Source of the DNA: Solidesulfovibrio magneticus RS-1
Lineage (GTDB): Bacteria > Desulfobacterota > Desulfovibrionia > Desulfovibrionales > Desulfovibrionaceae
NCBI RefSeq assembly: GCF_000010665.1
Contig: NC_012796.1
Span: forward strand, 558,001 to 622,000
Direction of reading: 5' to 3'
Length of the DNA stretch: 64,000 bases
Part shown: positions 29,555 to 44,146 of the stretch, piece by piece
Layout: each line of letters opens with the position of its first letter
How positions within the stretch are numbered: the stretch's first letter is position 1
The notes under the pieces: model-generated
Seen by the model: the letters and a program-made list of their open reading frames with translations, nothing else
What the model was told of the DNA's origin: nothing
Databases searched by the model: none
Made by a program: the position numbers and the translations under genes

Positions 29555-30325
29555 TCAGCCGCGCCAGCGGGCCATGAACTCGGCGGCCGTGCCGCCGGCC
29601 TTGATGTGGGCGATGAGCGCCGACCCAAAGACCACGCCGTCCACGAGGTCGCCAAAGGCGTAGAGCTGCTCGGGGGATTTGATGCCGAACCCGAGCGCCA
29701 CCGGGACGTTGAAAATGCGGCGCACGGCGGTCAGGCGTTCCTTGACCTCGGTGGGCAGCGATTCCCGCATGCCGGTGGTGCCCAGCACGGACACGAAGTA
29801 GACGTAGCCCCGGGCGTTTTGGGCGTAGGCGGCCAGCCGCTCCTCGGAGGTGTTGAGCCCCACCAGGGGGATGAGGTCCAGGCCGTGCTTGTCCAGGGCC
29901 TCGCGCAGCGGGCCGGACTCCTCAAGGGGCACGTCCGGGACAATAAAGCCCGACACCCCGGCGTCGGCCGCGTCGGCGGCCAACTGCTCCAGGCCGTACT
30001 GCAAAAACGGGTTGTAGTAGCCCATGAGCACAAGCCCGGCCCGGTACTGGCCCTTGCGCTTGCCCAACTCGTAAAAAAGCCACGACAAACAGGTGCCGTT
30101 GAGCAGGCAATCCAGGCTGGCCTGCTCCACCACCGGCCCATCGGCCACGGGGTCGGAGAAGGGCACGCCGATCTCGATGATGTCGGCCCCGCCGGCGTCC
30201 AGGGCGGCCAGTTCGTCGAAAAAGCGCTCCTTGTCCGGGAAACCGCCGGGCAGGAAGGGGATGAGCGCCTTGCGCCCGGCGGCCAGGGCTTCCATGATGC
30301 GGGTGGTCAGGATGGACTGGCTCAT
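29555..30325 (-). CDS. trpA: Tryptophan synthase alpha subunit
   Basis: A protein of 256 residues; ATG 30325 overlaps the trpB stop (ATGA). Cleaves indole-3-glycerol phosphate to indole and glyceraldehyde-3-phosphate. [20 protein letters not shown] contains catalytic Glu51 and Asp62. [25 protein letters not shown] and [12 protein letters not shown] bind substrate phosphate. Last gene of the supraoperon that begins near 42270. Any longer frame upstream is a shadow of trpB. Confidence 0.97.
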
Positions 30326-31515
30326 TTCGCGCCTCCAAGCTTGGCTTCGTGGGCCTCGATGATGCCGAGGTCCTTGTCGCCGCGTCCCGACAAACAGACG
30401 ACGACTTGGGAACCTTTGGGTATCTCGGCGGCGTGATTGAGGACCCAGGCCACGGCATGGCAGCTCTCCAGGGCCGGGATGATGCCCTCGCGGCGGCACA
30501 GCGCCTCGAAGGCGGCCAGGGCCTGATCGTCCACGGCGATGTCGTAGCGCACCCGGCCGCTGGCCCCGTAGTGGGCGTGCTCCGGGCCGACGCCGGGATA
30601 ATCCAGGCCGGCCGACACGGAATGGGACGGTTCGATCTGGCCTTCGCTGGTTTGCAGCAGCATGGTGCGCATGCCGTGGAGCACCCCGGGCGTGCCAAGG
30701 CTTATGGGCGCGCTGTGGTAGCAGCCCGGCTCGCCCGTGCCGCCGGCCTCGACGCCGATGAGCTTGACCGTTTCGTCGGGCACGAAATGGTGGAACATGC
30801 CGATGGCGTTGGAGCCGCCGCCCACGCAGGCCACCACGTAGTCCGGCAGCCGGCCCATCTTGTCCAGGCACTGGGCGCGGGCTTCCAGGGAAATGACGGC
30901 CTGGAACTCGCGCACGAGCAGGGGAAACGGATGCGGTCCGGCGGCCGTGCCGAAACAGTAATGCGTCGTGGCCTGCTCGGCGATCCAATAGCGCAGGGCC
31001 GCGTTGATGGCGTCCTTGAGGGTCTTGGTGCCGGACTCGATGGGCACGACCTCGGCCCCCAGCAGCTTCATGCGCTTGACGTTGTGCGCCTGGCGCACCA
31101 CGTCCTCGGCTCCCATATAGACGATGCAGTCCAGGCCCAACATGGCGGCGGCCGTGGCCGTGGCCACGCCGTGCTGGCCGGCCCCGGTCTCGGCCAAAAG
31201 CGCCGTCTTGCCCATGTACTTGGTCAAAAGCCCCTGGCCCATGGTGTTGTTGATCTTGTGCGCGCCGGTGTGGTTCAAATCCTCGCGCTTGAGCCACAAA
31301 TCAAAGCCCAGTTCCTTGGACAGGTTGGGACAGCGATACAGCGGCGACGGCCGGCCCACGTAATCGGCCAGCAGCGCATTGAGCTCCTTCTTGAACGGCT
31401 CGCTGGGCACGATGGTGCGCATGGCCTCTTCCAGTTCCAACAGCGGCGGCATGAGCAGCTCCGGCACGAACTGCCCGCCAAAGTCGCCGTAGTAGCCTTT
31501 TTTATGCATGGTCAT
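30322..31515 (-). CDS. trpB: Tryptophan synthase beta subunit
   Basis: A protein of 397 residues. Condenses indole with serine using PLP. Lys87 in [11 protein letters not shown] forms the Schiff base, and [13 protein letters not shown] binds the cofactor phosphate; [14 protein letters not shown] is the substrate region. The start at 31515 is unusual: its GGAGG ribosome site is part of a REP-like unit (head complement at 31525-31536). A 200-base element lies between trpF and trpB, so this is the only large gap in the trp part of the operon. Confidence 0.97.
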
Positions 31516-31524
31516 GAGTAGGAT

Positions 31525-31710
31525 GCCTCCGGCGGCCGGGGAAACCTTTTTTGCAAAAAAGGTTTCCCCGGACCCCTTCCCAAAAACTTTTCATGGGTGG
31601 CGCATGGGTGCGCGCAAATTTCCGACGTCGGCGGCGGTGAACGCCGCACCCCCAAGTGGGGGGTCTGGGGGCCTCAGGCCCCCAGCGGGGCTCGGGGCAG
31701 CGCCCCGATT
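31525..31710. repeat. Composite REP-like element between trpF and trpB (two inward-facing units)
   Basis: The plus-strand unit has head GCCTCCGGCGGC at 31525-31536. Then comes a perfect palindrome at 31536-31571 with arm CCGGGGAAACCTTTTTTG, followed by GGACCCC and an AAAAACTTTT tail to about 31592. The minus-strand unit is at about 31658-31690 (GGGGGTCTGGGGG...CCCCCAG), followed by GGGGCTCGGGGCAGCGCCCCG. The spacer holds a GGCGGCG/CGCCGC hairpin. The element directly precedes trpB and provides its ribosome site. In RNA it could act as a processing or attenuation point. Confidence 0.75.
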
Positions 31711-31716
31711 AAAAAA

Positions 31717-32340
31717 CTACACGCCCTTCACGGACCAAAGGGACCTCCGGACTTTTTGGAGGTCTTTGAGGCCCGGCGAGGATTCCACGCCGGAGTTGAG
31801 GTCCACGCCGTGGGGCTTGGCGATGCGCAGCGCTTCGGCCACGTTGTCCGGCCCCAGGCCCCCGGCCAAAAGCCACGGCATGGGCGGGGCGAGTTCGGCC
31901 AGGGCGCTGAAATCCAGGGATGTGCCGTGGCCGCCGCCCGAGGTGCCGGCGTCAAGCAGCGCGTAGCGGACCGCGCCGTCAAAGGCGGCCATCTCGGCGG
32001 CGAGGCTGCCTATGGTCGGGTGCTTCTGGGGCCAGAAGGCCCGGATGACCCGGTGCGGCCCCACGGCCCGGCAGAACTCCGGGTCCTGGCCGCCGTGGAG
32101 CTGGGCCAGATCGAGTTCTGCCTCGGCCATGATGCTGAGCACTTCTTCGAGGGTTTGCTCCACGAAAACGCCCACGCGTTTGGCCGCGACGCGCGGCAGG
32201 GCCGCCGCCTGGGCCGGGGTCAGGCGGCGCGGGCTTTTGGCGGCGAAGATGAAGCCGAGCAGGTCGGCTCCGGCCTCGGCGCAGCCGACGACGTCTTCGG
32301 CCCGGGTCATGCCGCAGACCTTGGCCAGGGGCGCGCTCAT
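31717..32340 (-). CDS. trpF: Phosphoribosylanthranilate isomerase
   Basis: A protein of 207 residues from ATG 32340, which overlaps the trpC stop (ATGA). Isomerises phosphoribosylanthranilate to the 1-deoxyribulose form. KVCGMTRAEDV holds the catalytic Cys, and GFIFAAKSPRRL, LAQLHGGQD, LLDAG and LLAGGLGPDNV are family signatures; VDLNSGVESSPGLKD ends the barrel. The longer open frame upstream is a shadow of trpC. Confidence 0.96.
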   Translation of the reverse strand: MSAPLAKVCGMTRAEDVVGCAEAGADLLGFIFAAKSPRRLTPAQAAALPRVAAKRVGVFVEQTLEEVLSIMAEAELDLAQLHGGQDPEFCRAVGPHRVIRAFWPQKHPTIGSLAAEMAAFDGAVRYALLDAGTSGGGHGTSLDFSALAELAPPMPWLLAGGLGPDNVAEALRIAKPHGVDLNSGVESSPGLKDLQKVRRSLWSVKGV

Positions 32341-33107
32341 GCCGCGCTCCCGGCCAGCCGGGCCAGGGCCGCGCCGGGGTCGGCCTCGGCCATGATGGAG
32401 GTGCCGACCAGCACGGCGTCGAAGCCGAGGGCCTGCATGGCCTCCACGTCGGCCCGGGTCTTGATGCCGCTGGCGGCGATCCACAGCCGGCCGGGGCGTT
32501 TGTAGGCGGCCAGCCGGGTGGCCACGGCGAAGTCGGTTTTGAGCGTATCCAGGTCGCGGTTGTTGACCTGGATGATGTGCGCGCCGGCGGCTTCGGCGCG
32601 TTCCAGGTCGCGCTCGTCAAAGACCTCGACCACGGCTTCCAGGCCCGCGTCGTAGGTCAGGCGCAGCATTTCGTTTAATTCCACATCGGTGAGCATCCGC
32701 ACGATGAGCAGCAAGGCCGAGGCCTTGGTGGCCGCCGTCTGCACCACCTGCAAGGGATGGAGCAGGAAGTCCTTGCGCAGAAGTGGCAGACCGCAACGGC
32801 TCATGGTTTCGAGGTAGTCCAGGGACCCCTTGAAGTAGGTCTCCTCGGTCAAGACCGAGATGGCGGCGGCTCCCGAGGCGGCGTACATGGCGGCCACGTC
32901 GTGGGGGCCAAGGCCGAGGTTGATGTCGCCCATGGAAGGCGACGCCCGCTTGTACTCGGCGATGACGGCCATGGGAGCCTTGGCGATGAGCGCGTCGGAA
33001 AACGACGGCCGTTTGCCCTTGTAGGGCTCGGGCAGCTGCTGGGCCGCCTCAAGGCCGACCAGTCGGCGCACTTCGGCCGCCTTGGCGGCCCGAAACTTCT
33101 CAAGCAT
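32337..33107 (-). CDS. trpC: Indole-3-glycerol phosphate synthase
   Basis: A protein of 256 residues; its start lies 8 bases inside trpD. Closes the indole ring of the carboxyphenylamino-deoxyribulose phosphate. VIAEYKRASPSMGDI contains the catalytic Lys, followed by VLTEETYFKGSLDYL, LLRKDFLLHPLQV, VVEVFDERDL, QVNNRDLDTLKTD and ASGIKTRADVE. Tightly packed with neighbours and co-translated. Confidence 0.97.
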   Translation of the reverse strand: MLEKFRAAKAAEVRRLVGLEAAQQLPEPYKGKRPSFSDALIAKAPMAVIAEYKRASPSMGDINLGLGPHDVAAMYAASGAAAISVLTEETYFKGSLDYLETMSRCGLPLLRKDFLLHPLQVVQTAATKASALLLIVRMLTDVELNEMLRLTYDAGLEAVVEVFDERDLERAEAAGAHIIQVNNRDLDTLKTDFAVATRLAAYKRPGRLWIAASGIKTRADVEAMQALGFDAVLVGTSIMAEADPGAALARLAGSAA

Positions 33108-34110
33108 GGAACACGTCCTTGAAAAACGCGGCCGCCGCGCCCTGGGCGATGGCGTCCTTGGCCTTGTCCACGCCCTGGCGCAGGGTCAGGCCGTCTTCGA
33201 GCAGATGCAGGGCGCAGCCGAGGTTTAAGGCCACCATGTCGAGCATGGCTTGGGGGCCTTTGCCGGAGAGCACGCCCTGCAGCACGGCCACGGCCTCGTC
33301 GCGGCCCGAGACCACCACGTCGCCGAGTTTGCTTTCGGACACGCCCAGGGTGGCCGGGTCGATGCGCTCCTTTTTGAGCCAGCCGTCTTTCACCCAACAC
33401 ACGTCGGCCGGGCCGAACGGGGTCAGCTCGTCAAAGCCGCCGGCTCCGTGGACGACCACGCCGCGCGACAGGCCGGTGAGCGCCAGCACCTCGGCCATGA
33501 GCGGCACGTGGCGCGAGGTGGGTACGCCGAGAATCTGGTGCGTGGGCCGGGCGGGGTTCAAAAGCGGCCCCATGAGGTTGAACAGCGTGCGCGCGCCGAG
33601 TTCCTTGCGGATGGGGCCGATGCGCTTGAAGGCCGGATGGTAGTTGGGGGCGAAGAGGAACACGAAATTGTGCTTATCCAGTTCGGCGGCCACGGCGTCG
33701 GGTTCGACGACCAGGGGGAAGCCCAGGGATTCCACGGCGTCGGCGCTGCCGCAGGCGCTGGACACGGCGCGGTTGCCGTGTTTGACGACCTTGTGGCCCA
33801 TGGCGGCGAGGTACAGCGCCACGGCGGTGGAGCAGTTAAACGAGCAAGTGTTGTCGCCGCCGGTGCCGCAGGTGTCGATGCGCGGGCCGGTGAGGCCTTC
33901 GACCAGCCGGGCCTGTTCCAGGGCGGTGGTGACGCCGGCGGCGATTTCCACGGCGGCCTCGCCCTTGGTCTTGAGGCCCATGAGGAAGGCGCCCACGCAC
34001 GAGGCGGGCATTTCGCCGGTGTACATGGCCCGGAAGGCGTAAGTGGCGAGATCGGGGGGCAGGTTCTTGCCGATGGCGAGCAGTTCGAGGCATTCAACGT
34101 GTTTTTCCAC
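33100..34110 (-). CDS. trpD: Anthranilate phosphoribosyltransferase
   Basis: A protein of 336 residues with a GTG start at 34110 and GGAG before it. Joins anthranilate to PRPP. DTCGTGGDNTCSFNCSTAVAL is the PRPP-binding loop; KHGNRAVSSACGSADAVESLG, NYHPAFKRIGPIRKELGARTLFNLMGPLLNP and HGAGGFDELT are also conserved. Separate from the glutamine amidotransferase trpG. Between trpG and trpD lies an extra HEPN gene. Confidence 0.97.
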   Translation of the reverse strand: MEKHVECLELLAIGKNLPPDLATYAFRAMYTGEMPASCVGAFLMGLKTKGEAAVEIAAGVTTALEQARLVEGLTGPRIDTCGTGGDNTCSFNCSTAVALYLAAMGHKVVKHGNRAVSSACGSADAVESLGFPLVVEPDAVAAELDKHNFVFLFAPNYHPAFKRIGPIRKELGARTLFNLMGPLLNPARPTHQILGVPTSRHVPLMAEVLALTGLSRGVVVHGAGGFDELTPFGPADVCWVKDGWLKKERIDPATLGVSESKLGDVVVSGRDEAVAVLQGVLSGKGPQAMLDMVALNLGCALHLLEDGLTLRQGVDKAKDAIAQGAAAAFFKDVFHA

Positions 34111-34121
34111 GGTGGGACTCC

Positions 34122-34526
34122 TTATGCGGCGGCGTGCGGGGGTGATTTGGGCGTGTCGGCGAGTTCTTCCCGGGCGAGGTAGAGGAAGGCCTTGGCCCGT
34201 TCGATCTGTTCGGACACGTCTTCGGCGGTTATGCCGGTATCGGTTTCGTTTTCGGCCCGGTCGCGCAGCCGGGCGGCTTCGGTGAGGAATCGGTTGAAGG
34301 TTTCGGGCAGGTAGCCGGTGGCGGTCAGGTGCAGGGCAAAGGCCGAGGGGATGTTGGCGGCATCGGCCACGGGGTAGCCGTGGCGGATGAGGAAGGCCTC
34401 GGCCACGTAGCGCATGACGGCGTGGAGGCGACCCACGGCGAAATCGAGGTAGCCCTCGCTGCCAAGCAGCCGCGCGGCGCGAAGGCTGGCCTCGGCCTTG
34501 TCGATGAGGGCGGGGATGGTGTTCAC
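34122..34526 (-). CDS. HEPN-domain protein embedded in the trp operon
   Basis: A 134-residue protein with a GTG start at 34526 after AAGGA, in a slot 12 bases after trpG and 11 bases before trpD. It is all-helical: ALIDKAEASLRAARLLGSE, YLDFAVGRLHAVMRYVAEAFL, and FNRFLTEAARLRDRAENETD then EDVSEQIERAKAFLYLAREE. This is the substrate-binding-like HEPN pattern of COG1895/COG2250 type proteins. The usual R-x4-6-H nuclease motif is absent (RLRDRAEN), so it is probably a binding or scaffolding HEPN. No MNT nucleotidyltransferase partner is adjacent. Its presence in a trp operon is unexpected. Confidence 0.75.
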   Translation of the reverse strand: MNTIPALIDKAEASLRAARLLGSEGYLDFAVGRLHAVMRYVAEAFLIRHGYPVADAANIPSAFALHLTATGYLPETFNRFLTEAARLRDRAENETDTGITAEDVSEQIERAKAFLYLAREELADTPKSPPHAAA

Positions 34527-34538
34527 GTCTGGCCGTCC

Positions 34539-35111
34539 TTACAGAATCTTATCCGGGAAATTGCCGATCAGCTTCATGCCGTCGGGTGTAAACACCGACT
34601 CCGGGTGAAACTGTACGCCGACCCACGGTCTATCCCGATACCGCATCCCCATGACTTCGTTTTGTTCGGTCCAGGCCGTGATTTCGAGCTTGTCCGGAGC
34701 CTTGGAGGCCAGCACCAAAAGCGAATGGTAGCGGCAGCACTCCATGGGGTTGGGCAGGCCCTCGAAAAGCCCGGTTTCGCGGTGGTACACGTCGGAGGTC
34801 TTGCCGTGCATGATGCGGTCGGCGACGACGACCGGCGCGCCGGCGAAATGGCCCAGAATCTGATGGCCCAGGCAGACGCCGAACACCGGGGTCGTGGCCG
34901 GCAACAGCTCCAGAAATTGCAGGCACAGCCCGGCGTTGGTGGGGTTGCTCGGGCCGGGGGAGATGCAGACCTTCTCCAGCTTGCCCGAGGCGGCCAGCTC
35001 CAGAATCTTGGGGTCGTCGTTTTTGAGCACCAACGGATCGTGGCCGCACTGCTGGAAGGCCTGCACCACGTTGAAGGTGAACGAGTCGAAGTTATCAATA
35101 AGTAAAAACAT
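34539..35111 (-). CDS. trpG: Anthranilate synthase glutamine amidotransferase component
   Basis: A protein of 190 residues; ATG 35111 lies inside the end of trpE. Releases ammonia from glutamine for TrpE. Class I amidotransferase with LLIDNFDSFTFNV, the nucleophile in FGVCLGHQILG, and the His-Glu pair in GVQFHPESV; SPGPSNPTNAG is the oxyanion strand. Separate from trpD rather than fused. Confidence 0.96.
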   Translation of the reverse strand: MFLLIDNFDSFTFNVVQAFQQCGHDPLVLKNDDPKILELAASGKLEKVCISPGPSNPTNAGLCLQFLELLPATTPVFGVCLGHQILGHFAGAPVVVADRIMHGKTSDVYHRETGLFEGLPNPMECCRYHSLLVLASKAPDKLEITAWTEQNEVMGMRYRDRPWVGVQFHPESVFTPDGMKLIGNFPDKIL

Positions 35112-36513
35112 CGCCTTCCTCCTTGGCGGCCAGCACTTCGGCGATGACCCGGGCCTTGTTTTGACACTCCTTCCATTCCGAAGCCGGGTCCGAGTCGTAG
35201 ACGATGCCGGCGCCGGCCTGCCACGAGGCCATGCCGTCGCGTATCCACATGCTGCGGATGGTGATGCCCGTGTCGAGGTTGACGCGGCCTTCGTCCAGGC
35301 CGATCCAGCCGATGCAGCCGGCGTAGGGGCCGCGCGGCAGCCGGTTTTCGAGGTCCGCGATCATCTCCATGGCCCGCACCTTGGGCGCGCCCGAAAGCGT
35401 GCCGGCCGGGAAGGCGCATTGCAGCACGTCCAGGGCGTCGAGGCCCTTTTTGAGCTTGGCCGTGACGTAGGAGACGATGTGCATGACGTGGGAAAACCGC
35501 TCCACGGCCATGAACTTCTCGACCTTCACCGTGCCCTTTTCGGCCATGCGGCCAAGGTCGTTGCGGCCAAGGTCCACCAGCATGACATGCTCGGCGCGTT
35601 CCTTGGGATCGGCCAGCAGTTCCTCGGCCAGACGGTCGTCCTCGACGGGATCGGCGCTGCGGTGGCGGGTGCCGGCGATGGGGCAGGTGGTCAGCTCGCC
35701 GTCGCGGCAGCGGATGAGCAGCTCCGGCGACGACCCCAGCAGCGTCACGCGCGGCAGGCGCATGAAAAACATGTAGGGCGAAGGGTTCACCTGCCGCAGC
35801 CGCCGGTAGACCACAAACGGGTCGCCGGAAAACGGCGCGGCAAAGCGCGTCGAAAGCACGGTCTGGATGCACTCGCCGGCCCGGATCATCTCCTTGCACT
35901 GGGCCACCGCGTCCATGTAGCCCTCGGCGTCCGGGGTGTTGACCACCTTGCCCAGCACCGGCCGATTCATGGGCGCGAAGATGTTGGCGTGCTCGATCTT
36001 GGCCTTCTTGCCCTCGTCCAGGGACAGATGCAGGCAGCGGTGCTTGACGTGGTCGAAAAGCACCACCCGGCCGGGCAGCACCAGACAAAACTCGGCCTCA
36101 TCGGGCGGCAACACCTTGGCCAGCTTGGGTTCGAACACCCCGGCCACGCCGTAGCCGAAGTAGCCCACCAGGGAGCGGGTGATGGGCGGCACGTCGTCAA
36201 AACCCTCGGGGGCCAAGATGTTGAGGTCGGCCAAGACGGCCCGAAGTCCCTCCATCATGCCCCGGCCGGAATGCTTTTCCAGGCCGGCCAGCCGCTGGTC
36301 CCGGGCGTTGACGTCGAGCTTGCCGTCCTTCAAACGGATGCGCAGGCGGAAATCCCAGGCGATGAGGCTGTAACGGCCCAGGCGGCCGTCGACTTCGGCG
36401 CTTTCGAGAAGGATTCCGGGCCGTTCGCCCACAAGCCCGAGGAATAGGCTGATGGGCGTCTGGACGTCGGCCGGCAGCCACGTCCCTTCCTGGCGGAGCT
36501 TGATCGCACTCAT
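35095..36513 (-). CDS. trpE: Anthranilate synthase component I
   Basis: A protein of 472 residues from ATG 36513, which overlaps the tyrA stop (ATGA); an upstream start at 36546 lies in tyrA. Converts chorismate and ammonia to anthranilate. The N-terminal LLES at 35-38 is the tryptophan feedback motif. The catalytic part has IPIAGTRHRS-like CPIAGTRHRSADP, DLGRNDLGRMAEKGTV, FPAGTLSGAPKVRAMEMI, and the final AGAGIVYDSDPASEWKE. Feedback control by Trp is therefore expected in addition to the leader attenuator. Confidence 0.97.
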   Translation of the reverse strand: MSAIKLRQEGTWLPADVQTPISLFLGLVGERPGILLESAEVDGRLGRYSLIAWDFRLRIRLKDGKLDVNARDQRLAGLEKHSGRGMMEGLRAVLADLNILAPEGFDDVPPITRSLVGYFGYGVAGVFEPKLAKVLPPDEAEFCLVLPGRVVLFDHVKHRCLHLSLDEGKKAKIEHANIFAPMNRPVLGKVVNTPDAEGYMDAVAQCKEMIRAGECIQTVLSTRFAAPFSGDPFVVYRRLRQVNPSPYMFFMRLPRVTLLGSSPELLIRCRDGELTTCPIAGTRHRSADPVEDDRLAEELLADPKERAEHVMLVDLGRNDLGRMAEKGTVKVEKFMAVERFSHVMHIVSYVTAKLKKGLDALDVLQCAFPAGTLSGAPKVRAMEMIADLENRLPRGPYAGCIGWIGLDEGRVNLDTGITIRSMWIRDGMASWQAGAGIVYDSDPASEWKECQNKARVIAEVLAAKEEGDVFTY

Positions 36514-37412
36514 GGGTTGTCCTTTTTTTCCGTCTTCTCGGTCCACCAGGCCTCGGCCCGGCGAACCAGCAGGTCGATGTCGCCGCCTGCGGCGATATTG
36601 AGGAAATTCCGGTAGTTTCGCACGGCCTCATGGCTGTGCGGATTGGCCTCGAAAAGCGCCGTGAAAAGGGCCGCGTCCTTGGTGATGAGCTTTTCCGCCG
36701 CCGCCAGCCGCCGCTCGAAGGAGGGCGTTAAGTACTTGCGCACCTCGCCGCCGGCCGCCTGGGCGGCAAGATAGGCCACGGTGGTGACGAAATTGAGGCC
36801 CTGGACATAGGCCGCCGCCTTGTCGTGCTCCTTGGCCGTGGACGGGAAGGGGGCAAAGCCGATGCGGCGGCACCAGTCGGCCACAAGCTCCGTCGCCCAG
36901 ACGTCCTGCCCGGGCCGGCCGTCCATGACCGCCACCCGCAGCCCGTCATCCTGGGCCGGAGCCGGGCCAAAAAGCGGATGCGTGCCCACCACCGGCCCGC
37001 CGTACCCTTCGACCATGGCGGCGATAGGCAGCGTCTTCACCGACCCGACGTCGGCCAGAATCTGCGGCGCGGCCAGATGCGGCGCGAGCCTGGCCGTCAC
37101 CTCGGCCGTGGCGTAGACCGGCACCGAAACCAGCACCATGTCCGCCCCGGCCAACGCCGCCGCGATGCCGTCAGGCGTCAGCGGCCGGTCAAGCTCCCGA
37201 ACAGCCACGCCCGCCGCCCGGCATTTGGCCGCGACAAGCTGGCCCATGCCCCCCCGCGCCCCGACCAGGGCGATAGTGGAAATGGCGCGCGGCGCGCCCG
37301 GGGGAGGAAACCCCTTTTTGAAAAAAGGGGTTTCCTCCCCCGGACCCCCTCCTTCCCCAAAAACTTTTTCCTGGGGTTGGGTGGATGGTTTGTTGCTGTT
37401 CGTGTTGGGCAT
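36510..37412 (-). CDS. tyrA: Prephenate dehydrogenase with repeat-derived N-terminus
   Basis: A protein of 300 residues from ATG 37412. Oxidises prephenate to 4-hydroxyphenylpyruvate. The Rossmann fold starts only at about residue 43 (TIALVGARGGMGQLVA). DVGSVKTLPI and GTHPLFGPAPA are family motifs, as is AYVQGLNFVTT. The preceding 40 residues (including GPGEETPFFKKGF) are encoded by a perfect 46-base palindromic REP-like unit and have no counterpart in the fold. No ATG, GTG or TTG lies between the palindrome and the fold, so either the repeat is translated or an unusual start is used. The ribosome site at 37412 is weak. Confidence 0.9.
   Translation of the reverse strand: MPNTNSNKPSTQPQEKVFGEGGGPGEETPFFKKGFPPPGAPRAISTIALVGARGGMGQLVAAKCRAAGVAVRELDRPLTPDGIAAALAGADMVLVSVPVYATAEVTARLAPHLAAPQILADVGSVKTLPIAAMVEGYGGPVVGTHPLFGPAPAQDDGLRVAVMDGRPGQDVWATELVADWCRRIGFAPFPSTAKEHDKAAAYVQGLNFVTTVAYLAAQAAGGEVRKYLTPSFERRLAAAEKLITKDAALFTALFEANPHSHEAVRNYRNFLNIAAGGDIDLLVRRAEAWWTEKTEKKDNP
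37298..37343. repeat. Perfect palindrome of the REP-like family inside tyrA
   Basis: Arms of 22 bases at 37298-37319 and 37322-37343 are perfectly complementary around a two-base loop (core GGAAACCCCTTTTT). GGACCCCC and AAAAACTTTTT follow at 37341-37370, as in the copy at 31536. Both lie in the same orientation, and here the sequence is in frame with the predicted tyrA start. Confidence 0.85.
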
Positions 37413-37444
37413 AATATGCTGTACTTCCTGAAATTTATTTTCTG

Positions 37445-37555
37445 CTTCGGTGCTGCTGCCTGTTGCGCCGTCCGCGGCGCAACAGGCAGCAGCACCGAAG
37501 CCCTCTCCATGTGAGGGGTCCGGGGGGCTCAGCCCCCCGGCGGGTGCGGGCAGAG
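37445..37555. repeat. Long perfect hairpin and REP-like unit 3' of aroA
   Basis: 26-base arms at 37445-37470 and 37475-37500 are perfectly complementary (start CTTCGGTGCTGCTGCC) around TCCG. A unit of the GGGGTCCGGGGGGCT/AGCCCCCC type follows at about 37514-37545, just 3' of the aroA stop. With the tyrA palindrome this forms a composite element of about 260 bases. Confidence 0.85.
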
Positions 37556-37588: not shown

Positions 37589-38926
37589 CTACTCTTCGTC
37601 CTGCATCGCTTCGCGTATGGCTTCCCATTTGTCCCAGAAGGTGGGGAACGATTTGGCGACGCAGCCGGGGTTGTCGATGACCACGTCGATGCCGGCCAGT
37701 TCGAAGATGGCGGCGGACATGGCTAAGCGGTGGTCGTCGAAGGCAGAGAATTCCACGCGCTGGTCGGTGCGCAGGGCTTTGGGTTTGATGCGCAGGCCGT
37801 CGGGCAGGGTGGTGACCACGGCTCCGGCCTGGGTGCAGTTTTCGGCCACGGCCTCGATGCGGTCGGACTCCTTGAGGCGCAGGTGGGCGACGTTTTTGAT
37901 GATGGTCTCGCCCGAGGCGAAGCAGGCGGCGGCAGCCACGGTGGGCACGAGGTCGGGGCAGCGGCCCATGTCGAGTTCCTGGCCGTGCAGTTCGGACGGG
38001 AAGACGGTGAGTCCCTCGGCCGTTTCCTCGATGCGCGCGCCCATGCGGGCGAGGATGTCGCGGATGGCCCGGTCGCCTTGGAGCGAATCCTGGCGCAGGC
38101 CGGCCACGGTGACCGGGGCCGGTCCCACGGCTCCGGCGGCCAGGAAGTAGGAGGCGCTGGACCAGTCGGCTTCCACGGCGTACTCGCGCGGCCTGTAGCG
38201 GGCGGGCTGCATGGCGAAGCGGATCTGGCCGGGCACGACGTCGGTGATGGCGCGCCAGTCGGCCTCGACCCAGGCGTCGCCTTGGCGGGTCTGGACGGTG
38301 AACGGCACGCCGAAATCGGCCAGGGCGGACAGGGTGATGGCGACGTAGGGCCAGGATACGGTTTTTTTGCCGGTGATCTCGATGGTCAGCGGCCCGGCGG
38401 CCATGGGTGCGGCCAGCAGCAGCCCGGAGAGGTACTGGGAGCTGTCTTCCAAGGATATGGAGGTGGTTCCGCCGGCAAGCCCTTGGGTGACGACGGCCAG
38501 GGGCGGGCAGCCGGATTTTTCGAGGTACAGGCATTCCGGGCCAAGGGGCAGCAGGGCGTTGACGAGTTCGCCGATGGGGCGGTCGTGCATCCGGCCGTGG
38601 CCGCGCACCAGGAAATGGCCGCGTCCGGCGGCGGCCACGGCCACGAGCAGGCGGCAGGTGGTGCCGGATTCGCCGACGTCGAGGGCGACGGAATGTTCTT
38701 CTTCGTCTTCGCCGCCCAGGGGCCGGCCGGCGGTGCCGGAGACGACCACGGAGCCGTCGCTTTGGGGATGCATGGCCGCGCCCATGGCGATCATGCAGTC
38801 CCGGGTGCGGGAAATGTCCTGGCTATCGAGCAACCCCGTGAGGCGGCTGGTGCCGGCGGCCAGGCTGGCGGCGATGACGGCCCGGTGGGACACGGACTTG
38901 GAAGGCGGCGCGGTGATGATCGGCAT
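37589..38926 (-). CDS. aroA: 3-phosphoshikimate 1-carboxyvinyltransferase (EPSP synthase)
   Basis: A protein of 445 residues from ATG 38926. Transfers enolpyruvyl from PEP to shikimate-3-phosphate. PPSKSVSHRAVIAA and DVGESGTTCRLLVAVAAAG bind substrates; EYAVEADWSSASYFLAAGA, LRLKESDRIEAVA and DDHRLAMSAAI are family motifs. Upstream codons to 38980 are shadow. REP-like elements flank the gene on both sides. Confidence 0.96.
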   Translation of the reverse strand: MPIITAPPSKSVSHRAVIAASLAAGTSRLTGLLDSQDISRTRDCMIAMGAAMHPQSDGSVVVSGTAGRPLGGEDEEEHSVALDVGESGTTCRLLVAVAAAGRGHFLVRGHGRMHDRPIGELVNALLPLGPECLYLEKSGCPPLAVVTQGLAGGTTSISLEDSSQYLSGLLLAAPMAAGPLTIEITGKKTVSWPYVAITLSALADFGVPFTVQTRQGDAWVEADWRAITDVVPGQIRFAMQPARYRPREYAVEADWSSASYFLAAGAVGPAPVTVAGLRQDSLQGDRAIRDILARMGARIEETAEGLTVFPSELHGQELDMGRCPDLVPTVAAAACFASGETIIKNVAHLRLKESDRIEAVAENCTQAGAVVTTLPDGLRIKPKALRTDQRVEFSAFDDHRLAMSAAIFELAGIDVVIDNPGCVAKSFPTFWDKWEAIREAMQDEE

Positions 38927-39140: not shown

Positions 39141-40292
39141 TCACTCCGCCTTGTCCGTCGCGCCTTCGGCCAGGTCCACCTGGGGACCGGCCGGGTAGCA
39201 GCCGAGGATGCGCAGGCTGTGGGTGTTTTCGGTCAGGGTGGCCAGGAGCTTCTTGTATTCCTCGCGGGTGAGGTCGCATTGCAGGTCGGCGAAAAAGAAG
39301 TACTGCCACTTTTCGCCCCGGATGGGCCGCGATTCGAGCTTGGTCAGGTTGATGCCCTCGCCGGCCAGATGGGCCAGCACCTGATGCAGGGAGCCGGGCT
39401 TGTTGGGCACGGTGAAAAGCAGCGAGGTCTTGTCCCGGGTCTGCTGTTTGGTGTCCTCGGGGCCGATGATGAAAAACCGCGTCCAGTTGTCGGGCAGGTC
39501 CTCGATGGGGCTGGCCAGCACATTAAGGTGGTGCATGGCGGCCAGGCGCAGGTGGCCGATGGCGGCGGCGTTCGGCTCTCCGGCCAGTCGCGCGGCGGCG
39601 GCGGCGGTGGAGTCGGTGGGGATGACCTTGGCCCGGGGCAGATGGGTCTTGAGCCAGCCGGCGCACTGGGCCAGGGGCTGGGGGTGCGAGTAGACGATTT
39701 CCACGGCGTCCAGGCTCGTTGCCGTGGAGAGCAGGGCGTGGCTGACCCGGCAGGTGATCTCGGCCTGGATAAAGACGTTGTAGCGCTGGAAGTTGTCCAG
39801 GCTCTGGCCGATGGTGCCTTGGAGGGAATTTTCCAGCGGCACGACGCCCAGGTCGGCCTGCTTGCCGGCCACGGCGGCGAACACGTCGCCGATGGTGGTC
39901 TGGGGCAGGAAATCCGGGGAATGGCCCAGGGCGGCCATGGCGGCGAAGTGGGAAAAGGTGCCTTCGGGGCCGAGGTAGGCCACCCGTTCGGGGCGCTGGA
40001 GACGGCGCGAGGAGGACAGGATTTCGCGGTAGACGGCGATAAGATGGTTGTTGGGCAGCGGTCCGGGATTGGCGGCGGTGAGGCGGGCCAGCACTTCCTG
40101 TTCGCGGAAGGGCTTGAAGATGGCGCTGGCCCGGCCGTCCTTGCGCCGCCCGACCTCCAGGCTCAGGGCGGCGCGTTTGTTGAGCAGGGCCACGATCTCG
40201 TCGTCCACGGCGTCGATGCCGTGGCGAATTTCGAGCAGCGCCTCCTCCAGGGAACCCGGGGCGACGGCAGGCTGGGTCGTGTCCGGGTTCAT
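39141..40292 (-). CDS. pheA: Bifunctional chorismate mutase / prephenate dehydratase
   Basis: A protein of 383 residues from ATG 40292, one base after the aroB' stop. The AroQ-type mutase (about 18-100) has IRHGIDAVDDEIVALLNKRAALSLEVGRRK. The dehydratase domain starts VAYLGPEGTFSHFAA and includes VVPLENSLQGTIGQSLD and the catalytic TRFFIIG. The C-terminal ACT domain has the phenylalanine-binding KLESRPIRGEKWQYFFFAD, with GSLH in place of GALV. Feedback inhibition by Phe is expected. Confidence 0.96.
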   Translation of the reverse strand: MNPDTTQPAVAPGSLEEALLEIRHGIDAVDDEIVALLNKRAALSLEVGRRKDGRASAIFKPFREQEVLARLTAANPGPLPNNHLIAVYREILSSSRRLQRPERVAYLGPEGTFSHFAAMAALGHSPDFLPQTTIGDVFAAVAGKQADLGVVPLENSLQGTIGQSLDNFQRYNVFIQAEITCRVSHALLSTATSLDAVEIVYSHPQPLAQCAGWLKTHLPRAKVIPTDSTAAAAARLAGEPNAAAIGHLRLAAMHHLNVLASPIEDLPDNWTRFFIIGPEDTKQQTRDKTSLLFTVPNKPGSLHQVLAHLAGEGINLTKLESRPIRGEKWQYFFFADLQCDLTREEYKKLLATLTENTHSLRILGCYPAGPQVDLAEGATDKAE

Positions 40293-40293
40293 G

Positions 40294-41268
40294 TCATCCT
40301 TCCTTGATCTCTTCGGCGATGCGCATGCCGAAGTGGCGGCCGGCCACGTCGGTGGAAACGAGCACCGTGTCGCCTTCCTTAAGGGCCACCACGCTGACGG
40401 GCTTGCCCTCGGGGGTGACCAGCCGGATGGTTTCGGCGTTTTGCAGGAACACCTTGCCTTCCTTGCCGCCGACTTCCGCAGTGATGAGCAGCATGGGCCG
40501 GATTTCGGTCTTGATCCGGCCGACCACGGCGGTCTTGGTGGCGCCCTTGTGGGAGACGATGAGCACTTCCGAGCCCGAGGCCAGCTCTTCGAGGTAGCGG
40601 GTCTTGTCCCCGGGCATCTGGCAATAGGCGTGGACCGCGCCGGCGTTGATGCGGAAGGGGCGGGCGGCGACGTAGGGATTGGACTCGGTTTCGGCGTTGA
40701 CCAGGAAGGTGAAGGCCGAGCTGTTGCCCACAAGCATCCCTTCGCCGGTTTTTAAGATGCTCGTGGTGTCCACACAGACCCGGTGGCCAAGGCCGGCGTG
40801 TTCGATCTTGGTGATGGTGGCCGGCACGAGTTCCATGGTTCCCTGGGAGAGCTTGAGTTCATTGACGATGGTCTTGAGGTCGCACACGGCTTCGGGGGTG
40901 ATGAGCAGCTTGTCCGCGCCGCGCTCCAGGACTCCGGCGGCCAGTCGCGCCCGGTCCAGGCTTTCGCACTCAAGCCCCAGGCCCTCGGTGCAGGCCAGGA
41001 TGTTTTCCACCGGGATGATCTCCCAGCCCTGGGCCAGGAAGACCGGACGACAGGCCTTCAAGGAATCGATGGCCGTTCCCTCGTCATCTTTGCAGCAGAT
41101 GGGGATCAGTTCGAACTGATCCGGCGTCATCACCTGGGTGCGGCCCAGGGCCAGCACCTTGTCGGCGTCGGCCGCTTCGACCACGAATCCGTCCACGCCG
41201 GATTCCAGGCCGAGGGTGATGACGTTTTTGTCGAAGGGAACGACCTTGAGCCATATTTCTTTGGTCAT
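40294..41268 (-). CDS. aroB': 3-dehydroquinate synthase II (archaeal type)
   Basis: A protein of 324 residues. Together with the next gene upstream it replaces the AroG/AroB route: it oxidatively deaminates and cyclises 2-amino-3,7-dideoxy-D-threo-hept-6-ulosonate to 3-dehydroquinate. It is unrelated to classical AroB. Family features include ELIPICCKDDEGTAIDSLKA-like regions, VPATITKIEHAGLGHRVCVDTTS, GMLVGNSSAFTFLVNAE, RPFRINAGAVHAYCQMPGDKT and GRIKTEIRPMLLI. Same order as in other Desulfovibrio aro/trp operons known to me. Confidence 0.93.
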   Translation of the reverse strand: MTKEIWLKVVPFDKNVITLGLESGVDGFVVEAADADKVLALGRTQVMTPDQFELIPICCKDDEGTAIDSLKACRPVFLAQGWEIIPVENILACTEGLGLECESLDRARLAAGVLERGADKLLITPEAVCDLKTIVNELKLSQGTMELVPATITKIEHAGLGHRVCVDTTSILKTGEGMLVGNSSAFTFLVNAETESNPYVAARPFRINAGAVHAYCQMPGDKTRYLEELASGSEVLIVSHKGATKTAVVGRIKTEIRPMLLITAEVGGKEGKVFLQNAETIRLVTPEGKPVSVVALKEGDTVLVSTDVAGRHFGMRIAEEIKEG

Positions 41269-41271
41269 GAT

Positions 41272-42069
41272 TTAATCCTTGAGGAGTTCGAGGGCCTGAT
41301 CGACTTCCCAGTCGAGGTGGACGATGCCGTGCAGGGCCTGGACGATGCGGGCGGGCTGGGCGTGCTGGAAGATGTTGCGGCCAATGGACAGGCCCGAGCC
41401 GCCGGCCTGGACCGAGTCGTGGGCCATCTGCAGCAGGTCGCGGTCGTTGTCCATCTTGGGGCCGCCGGCGATGACGACGGGGATGCAGCAGGCGTCGGTG
41501 ACCTTGGAGAAGGATTCGATGTCGCCGGTGTAGGGCACCTTGACCACGTCCGCGCCGAGTTCGGTGCCGACCCGGGCGCAGTGGGCCACCACGTCCACGT
41601 CGTACTCGTTTTTGACCTTGGGGCCTCGGGCGTAAACCATGGCCAGCACCGGCATCCCCCAGTCGGCGGCCCGGGAGGTGGTTTCGCCGAGGTGGGCCAG
41701 CATGTCGCGTTCGGTCTCGTCGCCGAGGTTGATGTGCAGGGACACGGCGTCGGCCCCGAGCTTGATGGCGTCCTCGACGGTGCCGACCAGGGTCTTGGCG
41801 TTGGGGAAGGGCGACAGGCTGGTGGACGCGGACAGGTGGATGATCAGTCCGACGTCGCGGCCGCGTCCGCGATGGGAGCAGCGGGGCAGGCCCTTGTGCA
41901 TGAGCACGGCGTTGGCCCCGCCTTCGGCGACCTGGTTGACGGCGTCGCGCATGTCGATGAGTCCCGAGATGGGGCCGACGGTGACGCCGTGGTCCATGGG
42001 GACGATGATGGCGCGGTGGGTGTTGCGATTGAAAATGCGTTCGAGGCGGACGGCTTTCCCAAGCAGCAT
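41272..42069 (-). CDS. aroA': 2-amino-3,7-dideoxy-D-threo-hept-6-ulosonate synthase
   Basis: A protein of 265 residues, a class I aldolase of the FbaB/DhnA type. Condenses aspartate semialdehyde with 6-deoxy-5-ketofructose-1-phosphate, the first step of the alternative route to 3-dehydroquinate. [19 protein letters not shown] (proton-donor Tyr), [10 protein letters not shown] (Schiff-base Lys) and [15 protein letters not shown] are visible. First structural gene of the supraoperon, starting 54 bases after the attenuator T-run. Confidence 0.93.
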
Positions 42070-42123
42070 GGCGTATCTCCTTGCGTTTGGCCCAACCGGC
42101 CGAGGCCGCCGGCGACTGGTAAT

Positions 42124-42157
42124 AAAAAAGGGCCGCCGGCGTAATGCCCGCGGCCCT
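42124..42157 (-). terminator. Attenuator terminator of the aro/trp supraoperon
   Basis: On the minus strand GGGCCGCGGGC pairs with GCCGGCGGCCC (one mismatch) and is followed by TTTTTT. It stands between the aromatic leader ORF and the first structural gene, the expected place for an attenuator. Confidence 0.85.
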
Positions 42158-42180
42158 GGAGAGGCTCGTTTGCGGTTGAC

Positions 42181-42270
42181 CTAGTTCGACCGCACCCCCC
42201 CCAGACCACGGGCGTGGCTAAACCAGTACCAAAAGTAAAAGCCGGTGGTGGGGGTGTGGAGGGTCTGCAT
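42181..42270 (-). CDS. Aromatic amino acid leader peptide
   Basis: A 29-residue ORF (ATG 42270 to TAG) just before a terminator and the aro/trp supraoperon. Residues 11-17 are FYFWYWF, seven consecutive aromatic residues with three Phe, two Tyr and two Trp codons. Ribosome stalling here upon lack of any aromatic aminoacyl-tRNA would favour an antiterminator, as in pheA and trp attenuators. There is no good ribosome site. The nearest promoter would start the RNA only about two bases before the ATG, so leaderless translation is likely. Not tested; the codon run is hard to explain otherwise. Confidence 0.85.
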   Translation of the reverse strand: MQTLHTPTTGFYFWYWFSHARGLGGVRSN

Positions 42271-42278
42271 GGGCAATA

Positions 42279-42308
42279 CGGGTACGTGGGGCGGCGGGAG
42301 ATTGTCAA
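42279..42308 (-). promoter_or_regulatory. Promoter of the aro/trp supraoperon
   Basis: Minus-strand TTGACA (42308-42303), then 18 bases, then TACCCG (42284-42279). The predicted start near 42272 is almost at the leader ATG. Confidence 0.55.
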
Positions 42309-42568: not shown

Positions 42569-44146
42569 ATGGGATTTTTGCGAATAATACTTGCTCTTTC
42601 CGTAGTCATCGGCCATAGTGACCACTCGTTCGGACTGCCAGGGCTCAATACGACCCTGGCAGTGCGTTCATTTTACGTTGTGTCAGGATTCTATATGGCC
42701 ATGGTGCTTTCCACGAAGTACAATGGAAAGCCTTATTATGTATTCATTAAGAGTCGTTATCTACGTATATTCCCTCTCTACCTTGCGGTTTTGTTGCTGA
42801 CTCTGGTTTATGGCTGCGTTACGTGGGCGATCATCGGCTCAGTGCAGTGGCCCCTCGCTGGCTGGGCCAATACCCTGACCAGACTCGACGACCTGTCTAT
42901 CGTCTACTACGCCCTGGCCAACGTGTTTATCTTCGGTCAAGATGTCCTCGGCTTTTTCCATGTGTCCGAGAACGGGGGGCTGGTCTTTGATTATCTCAAT
43001 CGCCTGTCCAACAGTTCTTTGGGCGGCTACATGCTTGTGCCCCAAGCCTGGACGCTTGGCCTCGAATTGGCCTTCTATCTTGTCGCACCCTTGTTCGTCG
43101 CAGGTTCGTCAATAGTTATTTTGGGGGTCATCCTGGGGAGTTGCCTGTTGCGCTTCGTCGCCCTCCCCGCATGGGGAGTCGAGGCCAACGCGTTCACCTA
43201 CCGCTTTTTTCCTTTTGAGATCGCCTTTTTTGGTTGTGGTGCGCTGGCGTACAAACTCTACGCTCGCTACCGAATCCTTGACAAGGGCAGGACGTTCCAC
43301 GTCGTCGCCGTGCTGGCTCTGGCTCCGCTTTTTCTTGCCTTTGACTGGAATATTCCGGACCTGACGCGCTACGCGGCCCTGGCCCTGGCCATCCCTTCGC
43401 TGTTTCTCCTGACCAAAAACAGCCGCCTTGATCGTTTTGTCGGTGAACTGTCCTACCCAATTTACATTAGCCATATTCTCGTACTCTACGCCATTACGCA
43501 GTACACCCAAGTGGGCTATGAACTCCCCGGCGTCCTCGTCACGCTGGCCCTTTCTTTGTTGCTGTATCTCGCCGTTGAGCGCAGGGTCGAAACGTGGCGA
43601 GGACGGGTGGTGGCAGGGACCAATCGCCGCTTTCCCTCCGCCAAGGGCCTGGCCGCAGCCGCGGTCTGTGCCCTGGCGATTGTAGCTGTGCTTCTGACTG
43701 GCAAGGCATTGTTAGAGAGCAAGCATCTCTCCCAAAGCGCTGCCATGGTGGATTACGATTTTATCAAAGACACGCCACGGAATATGATTCTGATCGGCTT
43801 CGAGCCCCCCGAAAATAATGCTTCGAGCGCTTGGCGCTGGGGCTTGGGCGAGAAGTCCGAAATACTCTTCTCTCTGCCAAAAGCGACAAACTGCAACCTC
43901 GTCTTTCAGTTCTTTCCCGTGGCCGACGGCCAGACGGTGTCTGTCTATTTTAACGATCTCCTCCTTGAGACGTTCCGCCTGAGAAAAAACGATGCGATCT
44001 ACAGGCAATATGCCCTGCCTGCCAAGAAGTCTGGCAATGTCGTGCGTTTCGTCTATGATGACTGGAATGGTCGAGTTGTCCGCTATATTCCGGAAGACTC
44101 CCGCCCGTTAGCCGTTAATTTCAATAAATTCGAACTCACCTTCTGA
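42569..44146 (+). CDS. Membrane O-acyltransferase (acyltransferase-3 family) with C-terminal extracytoplasmic domain
   Basis: A protein of 525 residues from ATG 42569. About ten membrane helices, with the family signs RIILALSVVIGHSDHSFG (catalytic-type His), FYVVSGFYMAMVLS, SRYLRIFPLYLAV and GELSYPIYISHILVL. After about residue 365 (AAAVCALAIVAVLL is the last helix) there is a soluble extension of about 140 residues with beta character (CNLVFQFFPVADGQTVSVYFND). It likely acetylates or acylates a surface glycan. Base composition is a little lower in GC than neighbours, suggesting acquisition. No ribosome site is obvious. Confidence 0.85.
   Translation: MGFLRIILALSVVIGHSDHSFGLPGLNTTLAVRSFYVVSGFYMAMVLSTKYNGKPYYVFIKSRYLRIFPLYLAVLLLTLVYGCVTWAIIGSVQWPLAGWANTLTRLDDLSIVYYALANVFIFGQDVLGFFHVSENGGLVFDYLNRLSNSSLGGYMLVPQAWTLGLELAFYLVAPLFVAGSSIVILGVILGSCLLRFVALPAWGVEANAFTYRFFPFEIAFFGCGALAYKLYARYRILDKGRTFHVVAVLALAPLFLAFDWNIPDLTRYAALALAIPSLFLLTKNSRLDRFVGELSYPIYISHILVLYAITQYTQVGYELPGVLVTLALSLLLYLAVERRVETWRGRVVAGTNRRFPSAKGLAAAAVCALAIVAVLLTGKALLESKHLSQSAAMVDYDFIKDTPRNMILIGFEPPENNASSAWRWGLGEKSEILFSLPKATNCNLVFQFFPVADGQTVSVYFNDLLLETFRLRKNDAIYRQYALPAKKSGNVVRFVYDDWNGRVVRYIPEDSRPLAVNFNKFELTF

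Follow-up and report, generated by a model that had tools for sequence, protein, structure and literature searches.

A putative three-aromatic attenuator, conserved and probably leaderless, at the head of an aro/phe/tyr/trp supraoperon in Solidesulfovibrio magneticus

In a 64,000-nt stretch of the Solidesulfovibrio magneticus RS-1 genome (NC_012796.1, positions 558,001 to 622,000; hereafter the window), a 12-gene aro/phe/tyr/trp supraoperon on the minus strand (aroA', aroB', pheA, aroA, tyrA, trpEGDCFBA) is preceded by what is very probably a ribosome-mediated transcription attenuator with three inputs, Phe, Tyr and Trp. A conserved, three-aromatic and probably leaderless attenuator of this type was well supported by comparison of sequences among relatives. 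It is the best explanation they offer for the leader ORF, its run of aromatic codons, the terminator, the covarying strands S1 and S2, their fixed geometry and the match between leader codons and gene content.

The leader ORF has 29 codons on the minus strand (42181..42270), from an ATG at 42270 to a TAG stop codon at 42183-42181, encodes the peptide MQTLHTPTTGFYFWYWFSHARGLGGVRSN and is probably leaderless. Its sensing run, Phe-Tyr-Phe-Trp-Tyr-Trp-Phe (FYFWYWF, 42220..42240), was recognised in the sequence, by genome pattern search and in relatives. Stretches with seven aromatic residues out of seven occurred in the window once per 113,904 six-frame seven-codon windows, and the single one must therefore be this run, whose degenerate codon pattern occurred only once in the 5.3 Mb genome. 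Upstream, a -35-like hexamer TTGACA (42303..42308), whose spacing to the ATG is kept in relatives, is followed 18 nt 3' by a weak -10-like hexamer TACCCG (42279..42284), located 8 nt 5' of the ATG. Downstream, an intrinsic terminator (42156-42124, minus strand) consists of a GC stem formed by 42156-42146 with 42140-42130 and a U tract of six T (42124..42129); its folding energy was -25.2 kcal/mol (z = -4.15). The aroA' gene has its own Shine-Dalgarno-like sequence, AAGGAGA (42076..42082), and such motifs were present at 127 of 140 aroA' starts. The 29-codon ORF with FYFWYWF, the GC stem and the six T before aroA', which the initial annotation had described, were thus all confirmed, on the minus strand; the -35-like TTGACA is precisely where the annotated range (42124-42308) stops. 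Simple promoter and terminator scans of the window called nothing at this locus, because TACCCG is a weak -10 and the stem, with its mismatch, misfits the terminator pattern. The divergent gene 5' of the attenuator (42569-44146, plus strand) encodes an acyltransferase (PF01757) and is apparently unrelated.

The first two genes behind the leader (all on the minus strand) are aroA' (41272..42069), for 2-amino-3,7-dideoxy-D-threo-hept-6-ulosonate synthase (TIGR01949, 400 bits, cut-off 299), and aroB' (40294..41268), for 3-dehydroquinate synthase II (NF002628, 582 bits, cut-off 508). With both scores above their cut-offs, the predicted products match the alternative dehydroquinate route. They are followed by pheA (39141..40292), for chorismate mutase / prephenate dehydratase, which scored above the cut-off of NF008865 and just below that of TIGR01807 (chorismate mutase domain); by aroA (37589..38926), for EPSP synthase, above the cut-off of TIGR01356; and by tyrA (36510..37445, start approximate), which is prephenate dehydrogenase-like in that its best matches are prephenate dehydrogenases, at scores below their cut-offs. 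The remaining ORFs, trpE, trpG, trpD, trpC, trpF, trpB and trpA (29555..36510), have homologues in the same order in relatives. Family matches of trpE were below cut-off, and trpG was above that of TIGR00566; the names trpD to trpA are our assumption, from general knowledge and gene order.

In the mechanism that we propose, whose start site, initiation mode, ribosome stalling, termination and folding order we infer, RNA polymerase would start on the leader ATG or no more than two or so bases away from it, and the leader would consequently be translated, probably, without a Shine-Dalgarno site. When charged tRNA-Phe, tRNA-Tyr or tRNA-Trp is short, the ribosome would stall in FYFWYWF, leaving strand S1, 6 nt downstream, free to pair with S2 before S3 is made. 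The resulting antiterminator, its helix lengthened by S1b:S2b, would block the terminator and the 12-gene operon would be read. When all three amino acids are ample, the ribosome would run through S1 to the stop codon and mask at least the 3' part of S1, upon which S2 would pair with S3 and transcription would end at the U tract.

Leaders of this kind are widely distributed. Searching with the aroA' protein gave 80 named loci. In 67 of them, the 400 nt upstream of aroA' contain an ORF in which four or more of seven consecutive residues are aromatic; one of the 13 misses had just 116 nt of upstream sequence. Widening the search to 700 nt gained the leaders of L077 and L082, plus a false one at L061, where a tRNA-Ser gene lies between the ORF and aroA'. 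L061 was classed as 'alone, no W' in the enlarged set and as 'other' in the initiation set of 176, and was removed from the sets used for promoter motifs, S1:S2 pairing and distinct aroA' proteins. With L061 excluded, a leader was found ahead of 140 of 156 aroA' genes in the enlarged set; five of the other 16 are the second gene of a tandem pair, and the stand-alone copies lacking a leader number seven besides L061. Stand-alone aroA' genes with no recognisable leader include L054, L059, L066, L074, L078, L083 and L061. In the set that yielded 176 leaders, the search around aroA' returned 21 occurrences of the gene with no leader. All 20 further regions, which came from 20 of 28 genomes in genera and families of the order that had been sampled less, had one, as did 11 of 18 regions from other families of the phylum. 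An aroA' match was present in 31 of 118 phylum genomes, 27 of them outside the family, and the 18 regions come from 18 of these 27. Within the family, aroA' is present in 269 of 288 genomes, in part of which leaders were examined. Start codons were placed by a fixed rule that takes, among ORFs of the required length, the shortest one opening with ATG; it puts some in the wrong place, such as that of L025, and underlies the leader, initiation and gene-content counts given here. Two variations were observed along the way. In L224 and L225, two tandem aroA' genes each have their own aromatic leader, with a Trp codon in both first leaders and in neither second. In L077, L082 and L183, the leader lies about 400 nt before aroA', instead of 200, with extra sequence between.

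Comparison of the upstream regions indicated that the ORF, the aromatic run and the terminator are kept in relatives, with a canonical terminator in 131 of 140 leaders. Rfam covariance models gave no family, T-box leaders included, at the gathering threshold in the window and five relatives, and only chance-level matches up to E = 10. Our own model R1, run on the genome of the window, gave two strong full-length matches, which are this attenuator and the one ahead of a stand-alone aroA'; the other matches were one weak full-length (E 0.38) and 12 partial at the terminator end.

Strand S1 (GCCCGTGGTCT, 42203..42213) lies within the leader codons just past the run, starting 6 nt after the last aromatic codon, and is complementary to the 5' arm of the terminator, S2 (GGGCCGCGGGC, 42146..42156). 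S2 is therefore common to the terminator, in which it pairs with S3 (GCCGGCGGCCC, 42130..42140, defined by alignment and folding), and to a predicted antiterminator with S1 as its 5' side. Folding and the comparison of native with reassigned strands add a flanking helix, in which S1b (42195..42201) extends the 5' side of the antiterminator and pairs with S2b (42158..42164). Of the 141 leaders examined, every one of the 132 whose terminator was recognised had a stretch of 7 to 14 bases able to pair in this way, in one case (L098) at an off-register place; the nine misses were L061 and eight leaders with a different terminator sequence. Four leaders (L012, L098, L099 and L163) had the wrong S1 register in the S1:S2 pairing run, which inflates the 'supra without W' class of that run (14), and were omitted from the reference list.

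Two alignments were made from 93 distinct leader regions, A1 with the window and 43 leaders and A2 with the window and 39, hand-chosen for spread and containing no leader classed as stand-alone. Across 44 aligned leaders, 91.9% of S1:S2 cells were paired, compared to 36-44% when the strands were slid against each other. Double-change cells numbered 18, against 6.7 +/- 2.2 in shuffles (reached in 0 of 500), whereas the number of pairs with double changes (2 of 11, versus 1.7; reached in 283 of 500) and of further pair types (11 versus 10.6; reached in 269 of 500) did not stand out; since the shuffles keep relatedness, these results are supports and not probabilities. The covariation signal comes mainly from one column pair, 120:197, which is paired in 43 of 44 leaders (UA 24, CG 14, UG 4, AU 1). 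Inside the terminator, column 197 is an unpaired mismatch in 38 of 44, and so the terminator does not explain its variation, which follows S1. The last S1:S2 pair is missing in 17 of the 44 sequences, and RNAalifold on the same alignment reported the terminator alone. Native S1 and S2 formed 10.08 pairs, compared to 9.73 +/- 0.04 when reassigned among leaders and 9.32 +/- 0.07 upon synonymous resampling, and reassignment, codon shuffling and synonymous resampling all lowered the pairing. For S1b:S2b, the native energy of -9.77 kcal/mol was reached by none of 1000 reassignments (-8.10 +/- 0.33). These sequences thus contain a predicted, mutually exclusive antiterminator that uses the 5' arm of the terminator, with covariation. 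The alignment of upstream regions that the initial annotation had proposed thereby bore out its reading of a putative attenuator leader at the supraoperon head, as the aromatic run, the terminator and an alternative, covarying stem are all kept in relatives.

The geometry is fixed in most leaders: S1 starts 6 nt past the last aromatic codon in 32 of 44 leaders, the stop codon lies 13 or 16 nt past S1 in 36, and the distance from ATG to S1 is in frame in 42. Masking was judged with a general figure for the size of the ribosome footprint. On that figure, a ribosome stalled in the run would leave S1 free or nearly so, and S1 would be wholly or partly masked once the ribosome advanced across it to the stop codon; a ribosome standing at the stop codon would mask just part of S1, which counts against the model. 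In the minimum-energy fold of the whole region, the terminator was kept in 41 of 44 leaders with S1 free and in all 44 with S1 masked, and in the full fold of the window the terminator was present and S1 was paired upstream. Folded alone, the segment from S1 to S2 averaged -32.1 kcal/mol and the terminator -24.2 kcal/mol. Since the terminator survives equilibrium folding with S1 free, the antiterminator would have to win by forming first. In the absence of translation it could form first and give constitutive read-through, a further point against the model.

To what extent the sensing codons follow the genes downstream was examined in 55 leaders with enough downstream sequence, with Trp scored in the nine-residue core of the run. 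Where the operon had three or more trp genes, all 21 leaders contained a Trp codon; of the 34 leaders before other operons or stand-alone genes, 12 did (Fisher p = 5e-7, with related genomes counted as independent). The trp genes were sought by tblastn with the window's own proteins, so that very distant ones could be missed. L115 and L254 are one region counted twice, and the use of distinct proteins with L085 added gives the same numbers. Leaders of stand-alone aroA' paralogs have mostly Phe and/or Tyr codons, and 30 of 32 distinct proteins had no Trp in the run; of 140 aroA' proteins with aroB' or pheA next, 32 had none. The genome of the window itself has a second, stand-alone aroA' (L085; attenuator 14726-14565, aroA' 14512-13712, minus strand), which resembles an end-product-specific isozyme and has its own Phe/Tyr leader MNARQTALRTVSFGPYYYYGLRARGLAGGAAD, with FGPYYYY and no Trp in the run. 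The expectation of the initial annotation that a leader with codons for all three aromatics would match an operon serving all three pathways fits the gene content, with Trp codons in the run before all 21 trp-containing operons.

This match may also be read as descent rather than tuning, with the run sensing mainly one or two amino acids and the others carried along because common-pathway genes need just a general aromatic signal. We regard this as the most serious of the alternatives, possible if rather unlikely. It would account for the Trp codons in those 12 of 34 leaders with no trp genes downstream, for the mixed state before aroA'-aroB'-pheA-aroA-tyrA operons without trp genes, of which 6 of 14 have Trp in the run and 8 do not (L254 not recounted; L115, MKSFVSTQNPRVFAYGYYQHGSCGPEALP, is one of the eight), and for the dominance of Phe among codons within 13 codons of S1 (F 170, Y 111, W 62). 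The number of independent pairs that back the correlation is also small. While the stand-alone state changes at least nine times on the aroA' tree, supported branches gave 3 independent pairs for the stand-alone state and 2 for trp genes, and sign tests on these were not significant; on average 1.9 of 3 and 1.7 of 2 pairs, respectively, went in the predicted direction, and a few pairings of the stand-alone test contain one opposing pair. Against this reading stand the invariable Trp codon ahead of trp genes and its rarity in leaders of stand-alone aroA', including that of L085. Altogether, leader codons tend to match the genes that follow, in a correlation that rests on related genomes.

We then consider the start of transcription and translation. 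In 129 of 176 leaders (L061 among the 176), the -35 ends 27-35 nt before the ATG, and where these near-promoter leaders have an exact TTGACA box, the distance is 29-34 nt. A Shine-Dalgarno-like four-base motif was present in only 16 of the 129, and C or T at position -1 in 127; in a largely overlapping set of 131 leaders, 16 such motifs compared to 13.9 by shuffling. In the latter set, 50% of leaders had T at -14 and 48% had A at -13, and the best -10 match was spread over 9-22 nt upstream with a peak at 14, which is also the distance of the first T of TACCCG here from the start codon. Leaderless genes have been described as recognisable by a -10-like signal some 10-12 bp ahead of the start codon (PMC3160421). 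The leader here is probably leaderless, its predicted +1 lying on the A of the ATG or no more than about 2 nt away.

Ordinary translation of a real attenuator, from an RNA whose 5' end lies some 15-25 nt before the ATG, is in our judgement unlikely. It would be consistent with the poor -10, with the silence of the promoter scan and with the spread of the best -10 matches, and homologous leaders in other genera are indeed of that kind: in 33 far-promoter leaders, with the -35 at 40-60 nt, Shine-Dalgarno-like motifs were present in 25 and position -1 had no clear base preference. The five leaders fetched from g18 also have a far promoter and are Shine-Dalgarno-like, and the far-promoter kind prevails among outer-family leaders. 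The near-promoter leaders argue otherwise, by their motif count close to that of shuffled sequences, the narrow placing of exact TTGACA boxes and the pyrimidine before the ATG. The suggestion of the initial annotation that translation may be leaderless fits 129 of 176 leaders, in which the promoter stands at a suitable distance from the ATG and Shine-Dalgarno motifs are scarce, and is weakened by a -10 that is poor here and spread in relatives. Exceptions to the near-promoter arrangement also occur. A strong -35 is lacking in 9 of 140 leaders, among them L028 (Halodesulfovibrio) and its relatives L096 and L164, as well as L077, L082 and L183, which are presumably close to Desulfovibrio vulgaris and all of which lack a near -35. 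In L028, L096 and L164, an inverted repeat like GATCC-N5/6-GGATC, seen by eye, replaces the -35 and is perhaps an operator. One genome, G290, has both architectures: L117, before aroA'-aroB', has a -35 56 nt away and a Shine-Dalgarno-like motif, while L105, before aroA'-pheA, has a -35 at 31 nt and also GGAG near the start.

A primary role of the peptide as a small protein, or of the terminated RNA as an sRNA acting in trans, with attenuation secondary, seems improbable to us. There is precedent in peTrpL and rnTrpL of Sinorhizobium meliloti, where rnTrpL begins at the trpL ATG and acts in trans (PMC7298713), and the terminated RNA predicted here would likewise be short with a strong 3' hairpin. 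However, the peptide varies considerably among relatives outside the aromatic run and the S1 codons, and the choice of S1 codons fits RNA pairing better than synonymous resampling does. A chance ORF above a simple terminator with no regulatory role can practically be dismissed, for although intergenic terminators are common and 12 of 15 model matches in the genome cover the terminator end alone, start, frame, run, spacing and the covarying antiterminator are kept in many genera.

Taken more broadly, we lean towards a single RNA switch across much of the phylum that would be re-programmed by its codons. Its S1/S2/S3 core is kept, while the run has Phe, Tyr and Trp before trp-containing supraoperons, Phe or Tyr where aroA' is a duplicated stand-alone gene, and mostly Phe/Tyr ahead of aroA'-pheA pairs; one large subset would be leaderless where homologues elsewhere are Shine-Dalgarno-led. 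For sulfate reducers, the attenuator predicts that one short RNA controls aromatic synthesis, starting with the enzyme that opens the alternative dehydroquinate route and reaching as far as tryptophan. It also offers a natural series of more than 100 related switches that have the core in common and vary in sensor codons, gene content and initiation mode. Two questions become testable with it: how one leader reads several tRNAs, and whether leaderless initiation has an advantage for a leader that needs a ribosome on it from the moment of its synthesis.

Enterobacterial multivalent attenuators of branched-chain synthesis, such as that of ilvGMEDA, have one leader peptide with codons for several end products, and the leader proposed here is similar in serving several end products of a shared pathway with one peptide. 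It differs from them in having three aromatics, in the position of S1 within the leader codons right after the run, and in the likely lack of a Shine-Dalgarno site. The initial annotation knew of no described attenuator of this mixed type in sulfate reducers. Our literature search, covering open-access papers, found no three-aromatic leader, but a putative attenuator was listed in 2005 ahead of D. vulgaris aroA'>aroB'>aroQ-pheA>aroF>tyrA>[trp operon] (Song et al. 2005, PMC1173090, Table 7). That entry, taken from Merino's attenuator website, concerns a supraoperon called novel for its first two genes, and it agrees with ours in operon type, position and predicted transcription attenuation; in the available text of the paper, no leader peptide, sensing codons or initiation mode are given, nor is the term leader used anywhere. 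The D. vulgaris gene DVU0460 had no match in open-access papers. In the accessible parts of PMC2659441, PMC5343134 and PMC8632094, other attenuators are described, including a Phe-coding uORF before aroF in Acholeplasma, with none of the three-aromatic kind, and that of PMC545781 had no match for aromatic, tryptophan or leader peptide.

Leader families in Rfam such as Trp_leader RF00513 (named in PMC4046766) would be comparable in function by analogy, with none at threshold here. The aroF leader of Corynebacterium glutamicum is akin in its Phe-Tyr-Phe, and differs in having two aromatics, in an actinobacterium, with no supraoperon mentioned in the portion of the paper available (PMC4046766). 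The ilvBNC leader of the same species is akin in being made without a ribosome binding site, according to a title in the reference list of PMC4046766. The trpL leader of S. meliloti is similar in that its transcript starts at the leader ATG, a start that is predicted here, and in ribosome-mediated attenuation; unlike the leader in S. magneticus, it has Trp codons in a peptide of 14 amino acids, belongs to an alphaproteobacterium and, as far as the available text describes it, serves trpE(G) only (PMC7298713).
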